From: Candidatus Nitrosopelagicus brevis
GTDB taxonomy: Archaea > Thermoproteota > Nitrososphaeria > Nitrososphaerales > Nitrosopumilaceae
Length of the DNA: 64,000 nucleotides
Assembly (NCBI RefSeq): GCF_000812185.1
Contig: NZ_CP007026.1
Location: 62,001 to 126,000 of the forward strand
Direction: 5' to 3'
Shown: piece by piece, positions 43,094 to 46,158 of the stretch
Numbering within the stretch: the first letter of the stretch is position 1
Layout of the letters: every line of letters begins with the position of its first letter
Translations under genes and position numbers: made by a program
The notes under the pieces: model-generated
Told to the model about the DNA's origin: nothing
Seen by the model: only the letters and a program-made list of their open reading frames with translations
Database searches by the model: none

Positions 43094-43555
43094 CTATTCT
43101 GCTCCTCTTGTAGTTTTGCAACATTCTCCCATTGGAATATCTCTACCTCGAGGACTTTTACTAGGACATTTTAACATAATACACAATGCATCTGTAAATT
43201 GTTTATTCATATGATGTTCTATTCCACAAACCATCTCTTCATCAATATCTATCTTTAATGCACTATCCATCAACACTTCAAGTAAGCGACTATTTCTGAT
43301 CATTGAGGATGCAACTTTTTCACCACTGTCTTTTAGTGTGACTCCAGCCTTGTTGTATGTAACCAAATCTCTTTCTGCTAATTTTTTTAACATTTGTACA
43401 ACGCTTGGTTGACGAACATTCAGTCTTTTTGCAATGGTACTAATCTTAACATCGTCGCCTTTTTCCCTAATATGCCACACTGCTTTAAGATACATTTCTG
43501 TATGTTCTGCTTCTGCAGTTCCTACAAACAGGACTTCTTCATCTATTGCATCCAT
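43094..43555 (-). CDS. DtxR/MntR-family metal-dependent regulator
   Basis: The 153-residue regulator has an N-terminal winged helix (about 18-75, ISTIAKRLNVRQPSVVQMLKKL) and a dimerisation and metal-binding domain containing EMVCGIEHHMNKQFTDALC and CPSKSPRGRDIP. The Cys/His residues correspond to the metal sites of DtxR/IdeR/MntR. It probably represses genes for iron or manganese uptake when metal is bound. It lies upstream of the 54-residue zinc-type protein in the same direction. Confidence 0.92.
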   Translation of the reverse strand: MDAIDEEVLFVGTAEAEHTEMYLKAVWHIREKGDDVKISTIAKRLNVRQPSVVQMLKKLAERDLVTYNKAGVTLKDSGEKVASSMIRNSRLLEVLMDSALKIDIDEEMVCGIEHHMNKQFTDALCIMLKCPSKSPRGRDIPMGECCKTTRGAE

Positions 43556-43610: not shown

Positions 43611-44378
43611 TTATGCTTTTTTAGCATCTTTTAATAAGAAATCAAAATATTCTCTTGCAAATCCTGCTAATCCTGCATGATCTGCCCAAATTGCCACTAT
43701 TTCTGATGAAGTAGAGCTACTAATTTCAGGACCTAGTAAAATCACAACATATCTTTTATCTGAAATTATGCCTCCTCCAAACAATCCCCCTTTTACTTTA
43801 ACATCTGCAACTCGAGAAATTGCTTTGATAGAGTCTTTATCAAATTCATCTGAGATGAGAATTGTAATTTTAATTCCTTTATCGTGTAATTGTCTAAGTT
43901 TTGGAAGTGCTTGTTTGACAATCAATTCTCCTGCTTGGGGAACTGCAATCATTACTTCTTCTCTACAGTGTTCGACCATTTCCATAATTTTTGAAACAAT
44001 GTTCATTGCACCGGAAATAAACCAGATATCTGGTTTTTCACTAGTACCGGTTTTTTCATAAAGTGGAATTAATTCTGATAAAATGACATTTTTGTTTTCT
44101 GAAAAAATAGTATCTGCGTTCTGTTTTGTTGTTTCTAATGCATTTGATGGGGCTTTTGCAAAATATTTTGTAGGTCTTGAATCATCAGAACCAATCCATC
44201 CCTTTTCCTCCAATGTACCTAAAATCTCATAAATTTTTGAATAAGGAACTCCTGAATTTTGACTAATTTCTGAGGCATTACTTTCTCCATCTTTGATTAA
44301 TGTTGTATAAGCTCGAATTTCGTAGCTAGTTAACCCAATCTTCTCTAATGATTTCTTTGTTTTATCAGAAATACTCAC
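43611..44378 (-). CDS. TrmB-family transcription regulator
   Basis: The 255-residue protein has an N-terminal TrmB winged helix (about 8-75, IGLTSYEIRAYTTLIKDGESNASEISQNSGVPYSKIYEIL in parts). The C-terminal PLD-like effector domain follows (VMIAVPQAGELIVKQALPKLRQL, ITILISDEFD, GGIISDKRYVVILL). TrmB proteins bind small ligands such as sugars or sense other signals and block transcription near the TATA box. The start is GTG at 44378. It is divergent from the tetraether synthase homologue with only 106 bases between, making that gene a prime target candidate. Confidence 0.9.
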   Translation of the reverse strand: MSISDKTKKSLEKIGLTSYEIRAYTTLIKDGESNASEISQNSGVPYSKIYEILGTLEEKGWIGSDDSRPTKYFAKAPSNALETTKQNADTIFSENKNVILSELIPLYEKTGTSEKPDIWFISGAMNIVSKIMEMVEHCREEVMIAVPQAGELIVKQALPKLRQLHDKGIKITILISDEFDKDSIKAISRVADVKVKGGLFGGGIISDKRYVVILLGPEISSSTSSEIVAIWADHAGLAGFAREYFDFLLKDAKKA

Positions 44379-44439
44379 GAACAGAATTACTGAATTCTCT
44401 ATTTAAGTTGACTATGATCGTTCCCTAATTCATCCGGTG

Positions 44440-44467
44440 GTTAGTAGGAGTGGGATTATATACTAAC
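44440..44467. promoter_or_regulatory. Inverted repeat around the TATA box of the tetraether synthase gene
   Basis: GTTAGTA (44440-44446) and TACTAAC (44461-44467) form a perfect 7-bp inverted repeat with a 14-base spacer. The TATA-like TTATATA at 44456-44462 runs into the right arm, and the ATG at 44485 is 23-28 bases downstream, as for a leaderless transcript. A protein bound here would block TBP and TFB. The divergent TrmB-like gene next door is the natural candidate; this is inference. Confidence 0.6.
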
Positions 44468-44484
44468 TTTCCAAGAATTAGTTA

Positions 44485-46158
44485 ATGGCTCTAATTCAGA
44501 TATCCAATCAGTCATCAAAAACTCAGGGTAAGAAATCCACTATTAGATTCACCCAAAGTATTTGCCCTGATTGTAACATGATTTTAGATGCTGAAGTTTT
44601 TGAAAGAGAAGGCAAAGTCTTCATGTCCAAAGTTTGTCCAACACATGGTGAAACTGAGGAACTCTATTTCGGTTCTTATGATATGTATAAAAAATTCAGT
44701 ACATACTGGGTTGACGGAAAAGGTGCACATGCTCCAAATGTAATTATGGAAGACAAGTGTTCTTGTCCAAACAACTGTGGATTATGTTCAAATCACTTGT
44801 CACACAGTGGATTGGCAAACATGATTGTTACAAATAGATGTGACCTTACTTGCTGGTATTGTTTCTTCTATGTCAAGAAAGGACTAGAAGGTGCTTACAT
44901 GTATGAACCAAATCATGATCAAGTAAGAGGAATGATGAAAACATTAAGATCAGAAAGACCAATCCCAGGAAACTCTATGCAAATTACTGGTGGTGAACCA
45001 ATGCTTAGAGAAGATATTGCAGATTTAATCAAAATTATGAAAGAAGAAGGTGTTGAACATATTCAAATGAATACAAATGGAATTCGACACGCAATGGATC
45101 CAGAAGCAGGACGTGAAGTAAGAATGGCAGGCTGTAACAACTTGTATCTTAGCTTTGACGGTGTAACTGCAAGAACAAATCCAAAGAACCACTGGGAAAT
45201 TCCATATGCACTAGACACTTGTAGAAAAACCGGAACAACTGTTGTATTTGTTCCAACTGTTATCAAATCAATTAATGATCATGAATTAGGAGGAATTATC
45301 AGATATGCACAAAAGAACTTGGACGTTGTTCATGCAGTAAACTTCCAACCAGTATCACTAACTGGAAGAATGGGAAAATCAGAACGTGAAAAATATAGAA
45401 TCACAGTACCTGATTGTATACAAAGAATCGAAGAACAAACTGAAGGTCAAGTTACTGTTGATGATTGGTATCCAGTACCAAGTTGTATGCCATTGACAAA
45501 CGTAATTGAAGCATTTTCAAGTAAACCAAAATACGAATTATCTATTCACTTTGCATGTGGAGCAGGAGCTTATGTGTTCCAAGATGCAGACACCAAGAAA
45601 CTTGTCCCAATGACAAGATTCTGTGATATTCAAGGTATGTTAGAATTGTTTGAAGATAAAGCAGAACAAATTCGTTCTGGTGCAAACAAGTACTTTACAA
45701 TGCTTGAAGTTGTAAGAAAACTCAAAGGATTCATCAATAAAGAAAACCAACCAGCCGGATTAGACTTGGCAAAGATGTTTGGAAATATCTTGATGAAGAG
45801 ATCATTTGAAGCAGTAGGTTCATGGCACGTCAAAGGCCTATTCTTAGGAATGATGCACTTCCAAGACAAATACAATGAAGATTTAGAAAGATTACAAAGA
45901 TGTGATATTCACTATGTTACTCCAGACCTTAGAATTATTCCATTCTGTGCATTCAATGTAATTCCAGAATGGTACAGAGACAGAATCCAAAAGAAATATT
46001 CTATCACTGTTGAGGAATGGGAACAACGTGAAGGTGTAAAACTTGAAGACGGTCTTTACAGAGGTCTTATGAGAAGAGGTGCAGGTGACGAACTTGCAGC
46101 AGGATGTGCAAAGAGTGAGATGTTCCACCAAGCAGAACAAGCAATGGGCGCTCAATAA
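44485..46158 (+). CDS. tes: Radical SAM protein, tetraether (GDGT) lipid synthase Tes homologue
   Basis: The 557-residue radical SAM protein has C-x3-C-x2-C at 119, 123 and 126 (TNRCDLTCWYC), binding the SAM-cleaving 4Fe-4S cluster. Before it are a rubredoxin-like site (C27-P-D-C30 and C51-P-T-H54) and a further cysteine cluster at 92-101. Additional cysteines follow in the C-terminal half. This architecture and sequence match the MJ0619/MA_1486 family, shown to join two archaeol chains into tetraethers. In this lineage it would make the membrane-spanning crenarchaeol-type core. Codons look optimised, suggesting strong expression. Confidence that it is this family is high; enzymatic identity is by homology. 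Confidence 0.85.
   Translation: MALIQISNQSSKTQGKKSTIRFTQSICPDCNMILDAEVFEREGKVFMSKVCPTHGETEELYFGSYDMYKKFSTYWVDGKGAHAPNVIMEDKCSCPNNCGLCSNHLSHSGLANMIVTNRCDLTCWYCFFYVKKGLEGAYMYEPNHDQVRGMMKTLRSERPIPGNSMQITGGEPMLREDIADLIKIMKEEGVEHIQMNTNGIRHAMDPEAGREVRMAGCNNLYLSFDGVTARTNPKNHWEIPYALDTCRKTGTTVVFVPTVIKSINDHELGGIIRYAQKNLDVVHAVNFQPVSLTGRMGKSEREKYRITVPDCIQRIEEQTEGQVTVDDWYPVPSCMPLTNVIEAFSSKPKYELSIHFACGAGAYVFQDADTKKLVPMTRFCDIQGMLELFEDKAEQIRSGANKYFTMLEVVRKLKGFINKENQPAGLDLAKMFGNILMKRSFEAVGSWHVKGLFLGMMHFQDKYNEDLERLQRCDIHYVTPDLRIIPFCAFNVIPEWYRDRIQKKYSITVEEWEQREGVKLEDGLYRGLMRRGAGDELAAGCAKSEMFHQAEQAMGAQ

Follow-up and report, generated by a model that had tools for sequence, protein, structure and literature searches.

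The window analyzed here, a 64,000-nt stretch within the complete, 1.23-Mb genome of Candidatus Nitrosopelagicus brevis, contains a pair of divergent genes separated by 106 bp (Table 1). The plus-strand gene had been described in a first-pass annotation as a homolog of the glycerol dialkyl glycerol tetraether (GDGT) synthase, and its identity as the tetraether lipid synthase Tes is secure at the sequence level: its product scores well beyond the 450-bit cut-off of the NF045702 equivalog, with 71.9 bits for the radical SAM domain PF04055, and it is the only tes copy in this genome. The facing gene, which shares the 106-base region with tes as reported, does indeed encode a TrmB-type protein. 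The distance of the tes TATA box from the start codon leads us to expect a nearly leaderless tes transcript. At the position of the probable trmB TATA box, many relatives carry TTTAAATA.

Two further features of the locus are worth recording. A gene for a DtxR/MntR-type metal-dependent regulator (window 43094-43555, minus strand) lies directly downstream of trmB, a place that it keeps in other genera. Between the trmB TATA box and the trmB start, where an autorepression site would sit, the window has the palindromic stretch GAATT-N4-AATTC (44384-44397), and palindromes of the GATCGATTAGATCG type occupy the same interval just upstream of trmB in Nitrosopumilus loci.

Table 1. Features of the tes-trmB locus (window coordinates).
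Feature	Position	Strand	Basis
tes, tetraether lipid synthase (radical SAM), 557 aa	44485..46158	+	NF045702, 687.5 bits; PF04055
trmB-like regulator gene, 255 aa; winged helix plus PLD-like domain, without sugar-binding part	43611..44378	-	PF01978; structural model and fold match; orthologs adjoining tes
tes TATA box TTATATA, 29 nt before ATG	44456..44462	+	Sequence; invariant or nearly so in the family
Probable trmB TATA box CTTAAATA, 29 nt before GTG	44400..44407	-	Sequence
Conserved bipartite tes promoter element (block A, 44428-44439; variable spacer, 44440-44442; block B, 44443-44451)	44428..44451	+	Column information; pairwise identity; single genome site; top matrix match in window
Inverted repeat GTTAGTA-N14-TACTAAC, judged a chance feature; left arm inside the conserved element	44440..44467	.	

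The inverted repeat over the tes TATA box

The first-pass annotation had proposed that tes is controlled through an operator-like site over its TATA box, formed by a perfect 7-bp inverted repeat. The two arms, GTTAGTA (44440-44446) and TACTAAC (44461-44467), and the TATA box are all present as claimed, and the left arm falls within the conserved element described below. Against a role as operator, such repeats are found at chance level. A perfect 7-bp inverted repeat with a spacer of up to 25 nt occurs in 24% of shuffles of the 106-bp region and in 21% of 603 window tiles of 106 bp, and an arm of such a repeat overlaps 5 of the 44 TATA-like sites in the window. The annotation had also tied the operator to conservation of the repeat wherever tes and trmB are conserved; when promoters were anchored on the TATA box and compared, the repeat was not conserved, pairing at all seven positions in only 2 of 87 distinct tes promoters and mostly at three or four. 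It is broken already in the closest relatives (Tes 98-100% identical), most of which have TACTCAT or TACTAAT as the right arm. We hence reject the repeat as an operator, a reading to which we give next to no credence, and regard it as a chance feature.

A conserved bipartite element upstream of the tes TATA box

Gapless alignment of the same 87 promoters on the TATA box shows instead a 24-nt bipartite element, conserved in the family at a fixed distance upstream of this box and touching the expected BRE rather than covering the TATA box, where the control site had been placed. It is made of two conserved blocks, at -28 to -17 and -13 to -5 relative to the TATA box, separated by three variable bases; the form in the window, directly upstream of the TATA box, is ATTCATCCGGTGGTTAGTAGGAGT, and the Nitrosopumilus consensus is TTCCACACGGGGNNNAGTRTGAAA. 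In 44 non-redundant promoters compared pair by pair, the two blocks average 0.51 and 0.60 identity, the spacer 0.27 and the flank upstream 0.30; the whole element averages 0.51, vs 0.26 for shuffled sequences. With a matrix trained without the closest relatives of the window (Tes at least about 95% identical), though with less closely related members of its GTDB genus left in, 44428-44451 ranks first on both strands of the window, scoring 21.2 vs 13.5 for the next site. In the other families of the order, tes has TTCACCGTAKG or close variants at the same place, and position and partial similarity suggest that these are probably homologous to the 24-nt element. Since block B, which ends 4 nt before the TATA box, overlaps the expected BRE, its conservation may in part reflect basal promoter strength.

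A site for a dimer is expected to have dyad symmetry, and its weak or lineage-limited expression here is the main weakness of the claim that a TrmB-type protein binds the element. Symmetry reaches p<0.05 in 8 of 44 lineages, vs 2 of 44 for a control stretch, and in the window the arms CATCC and GTAGG pair at three of five positions. A perfect palindrome was thus rejected as the defining feature, symmetry being clear only in some lineages. Other dyads were seen at tes promoters. One is centered on the TATA box itself, from -7 to +12, in L042, L056 and other Nitrosopumilus promoters (AAACAG-ATTATATA-CTGTTT, AAATGG-ATTATATA-CCATTT); it is weak in the window, and its apparent covariation, the highest in the scan, may reflect shared ancestry. 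L185 and L186, from one more distant family, have strong inverted repeats on the upstream side of the tes TATA box (CTTTACC-N10-GGTAAAG and TTTACTTTAT-N7-ATAAGGTAAA), possibly a diverged operator.

In pattern searches of whole genomes, the element proved to be essentially single-copy, and located at tes. At up to three mismatches, the window form has a single site in its own genome, at tes, and the reversed control has 0. The Nitrosopumilus form has exactly one match in 17 of 21 complete genomes of the family, each adjoining tes (control matches, 0). Of 25 genomes searched with the form of the other families, 18 have a match at the tes promoter; the three matches found off target are all at three mismatches. 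Because the element is near-unique per genome and keeps a fixed spacing to the tes TATA box, we conclude that it is an element of the tes promoter rather than a motif common to promoters generally; nothing resembling it was found among the 11 other TATA-bearing promoters of the window, a small set. A broad regulon defined by TTCCACAC-N8-GTGTGAAA was considered and rejected: matches at three mismatches were only modestly above the reversed-pattern control, those listed were scattered, and under a tighter consensus tes alone remains. An RNA element was likewise rejected, since no Rfam family was found in the intergenic region and both transcription starts are predicted to lie downstream of the element.

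Linkage of trmB to tes

Throughout the order, tes is found in genetic linkage with a single TrmB-family ortholog. Sufficient upstream DNA was available at 77 named loci. At 70 of these, trmB diverges from tes at 104-121 bp, at 3 it does so at 478-1246 bp, and at 4 it is absent nearby. Genomes of the family normally have one strong trmB ortholog each, and in other families the divergent neighbor of tes is the same protein, at 35-52% identity; in G202 and G218, from one more distant family, the best trmB match lies just downstream of tes. Neither tes nor trmB was matched in 11 genomes of high completeness (G046, G061, G028, G081, G097, G099, G105, G110, G186, G192 and G197). The neighboring dtxR is also absent in 10 of these and is a fragment at a contig start in the eleventh, and in G061, G105 and G081 a contig end falls in the tes/trmB neighborhood. 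Missing sequence seems a better account of this than gene loss, though not for G046, which is a single contig.

The loci in which the pair has come apart bear on the question of which promoter the element serves. Seen from trmB, the element of the window is likewise upstream, 21-44 nt from the TATA box, and it could be read as an upstream activation site of trmB rather than of tes. In 140 loci the element keeps 26-28 nt from the TATA box of tes, in a search that admitted 22-31, whereas its distance to the trmB start ranges from 49 to 323 nt, and because the first spacing is fixed and the second variable we assign the element to the tes promoter. Moreover, the element remains at tes after trmB has moved: in G006, G242 and G281, trmB is found elsewhere or on another contig and the element is still at tes, in G006 as a perfect TCCAAC-N8-GTTGGA. 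Finally, G001 has two tes copies about 8 kb apart (G001:C1:1063480-1073137; L154 and L155), each with the same upstream element; trmB adjoins one, and the L155 copy is without it. A role at the trmB promoter instead of tes is hence very improbable.

TrmB searches of four other genomes (G193, G196, G199 and G285) find at best a distinct protein of about 24% identity, and tes there lacks the element in its promoter. This joint absence of ortholog and element points to a pairing of the two, in a way that is suggestive only, because the genomes are few and partly related; they are also incomplete, three of them being 89-91% complete. The tes promoter of G285 (L097) has no recognizable TATA box at the usual place and keeps CCGAGGCAAGTGAAGTCAT, perhaps a decayed element.

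The TrmB-like protein

The TrmB winged helix (PF01978) spans residues 11-77 of the protein at 78 bits, against a cut-off of 25.6. Y46 and Y50 are invariant in 47 orthologs, and E51 here is the acidic neighbor of Y50, in keeping with the DNA-contacting Tyr50 and its acidic neighbor (D/E51) in the TrmB family (PMC4158304). The recognition helix, PYSKIYEVL, is nearly constant across the orthologs, and a test of covariation between helix and element was uninformative because of this near-invariance.

Beyond the winged helix, the protein departs from the sugar-sensing members of the family. It scores 79.5 and 76.3 bits with the TrmB and TrmBL1 equivalogs (NF040851 and NF047390), vs cut-offs of 600 and 650, and PF11495 is matched only at 2-124 of 233. 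The sugar-binding part with residues G320 and E326 (PMC4158304) has no counterpart, the protein stopping at residue 255. A predicted structural model (mean pLDDT 86) has a pTM of 0.54, which leaves the domain arrangement uncertain. Its best fold match is TrmBL2 (PDB 5box, 5bpd), which is also the best full-length sequence match, and its C-terminal domain resembles PLD-like domains; the score with the TrmBL2 equivalog NF041141 is nonetheless 48.3 bits vs a cut-off of 530, although the fold is closest.

Discussion

We propose, with somewhat better than even confidence, that the truncated TrmB protein binds the conserved element and thereby controls tes, by position more probably as an activator. 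The intergenic region would then hold a dedicated control element for tes, on which a dimer of the TrmB-like protein would sit next to the BRE, with each block taken by one protomer and the two about a helical turn apart. The bound protein would more probably help TFB and TBP onto the tes promoter than block them, would respond to a non-sugar signal, perhaps via its PLD-like domain, and might also affect the divergent trmB promoter. The earlier suggestion that the facing TrmB-type protein controls tes from the intergenic region is thus wrong in its key detail, the 7-bp repeat, and right in its general direction, which the order-wide conservation of the divergent pair and the tes-specific element have strengthened.

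The protein identified here is not the only candidate for the element. Another factor, either a different regulator or a particular TFB variant, might bind it, and the linkage of trmB to tes would then have some other cause. None of the known TrmB-family motifs TACT-N3-AGTA, TGM (TATCAC-N5-GTGATA) and TACT-N7-8-GAGTA is present in ATTCATCCGGTGGTTAGTAGGAGT or the TTCCACACGGGGNNNAGTRTGAAA consensus, symmetry in the window is weak, and several genomes keep the element without an adjoining trmB. Those genomes, however, have a trmB ortholog elsewhere, the four without an ortholog are also without the element, and the element is practically tes-specific, unlike the motif of a TFB variant. We consider this alternative unlikely.

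If the TrmB-like protein does bind, the sign of its action would depend on position. In TrmBL1, Tgr and the Halobacterium protein VNG1451C, sites upstream of the BRE/TATA go with activation and sites downstream with repression (PMC4158304, PMC4706686). The element lies mostly upstream of the BRE, which its right block touches, and because TrmB-family sites so placed go with activation, we judge activation of tes to be likelier than repression, without certainty. Repression by the same protein, through hindrance of TFB at the BRE with release by a ligand, would draw on the extension of block B to 4 nt before the TATA box, where a bound dimer would crowd the BRE, and on the precedent of Pyrococcus TrmB, which represses malE from a site over the BRE/TATA (PMC4158304). 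The element nevertheless leaves the TATA box and start site uncovered, and in the TrmB family a site upstream of the promoter is mostly an activating one (PMC4706686), so that repression too seems to us doubtful.

The proposed control of tes by the TrmB-like protein has parallels among known systems, each of them partial. Pyrococcus TrmBL1 and Thermococcus Tgr, acting on TGM, likewise combine a TrmB-family winged helix with a site beside the BRE/TATA that activates when upstream; unlike the protein described here (255 aa, one candidate site, at a lipid gene and of other sequence), they are global sugar regulators of 341 aa, with a sugar-binding domain and many sites. TrmB at malE in Pyrococcus and T. 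litoralis (TACT-N3-AGTA) is similarly a local regulator adjoining its target genes, but it represses from a site over the BRE/TATA, of different sequence, and has a sugar effector. Halobacterium VNG1451C (TACT-N7-8-GAGTA) shares a bipartite site and activates when upstream of the promoter, whereas it is a global, glucose-responsive protein of 360 aa with a different motif. TrmBL2, at 264 aa, has the same combination of winged helix and PLD-like domain without a sugar-binding part, but is a chromatin protein with wide binding, in contrast to the tes-linked protein and its essentially single candidate site. We hence view the system as a local archaeal regulator with a candidate operator, known in type and unusual in its target, a lipid gene.

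The GDGT lipids on which the TEX86 temperature proxy is based are considered to come mainly from marine ammonia-oxidizing archaea. How GDGT formation is regulated was noted as still to be understood in the paper that identified Tes (PMC8941075), and in the open-access papers that our search covered we found no link between the TrmB family and tes or GDGT synthesis in these archaea. The extension of the tes-trmB pairing from Nitrosopelagicus to other families suggests that this control may be old and shared. It is tempting, if decidedly speculative, to imagine an order-wide switch dedicated to membrane lipids, in which a TrmB-type regulator that lacks the sugar-binding part would sense a lipid- or membrane-related signal via its PLD-like domain and set tetraether synthesis in ammonia-oxidizing archaea through a single tes operator. 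Because tes has a conserved element of its own and is paired almost constantly with one regulator gene, the control of tetraether lipids becomes testable: with a specific regulator and a specific 24-nt element, one can ask directly if these archaea adjust tetraether synthesis and which signal they follow.
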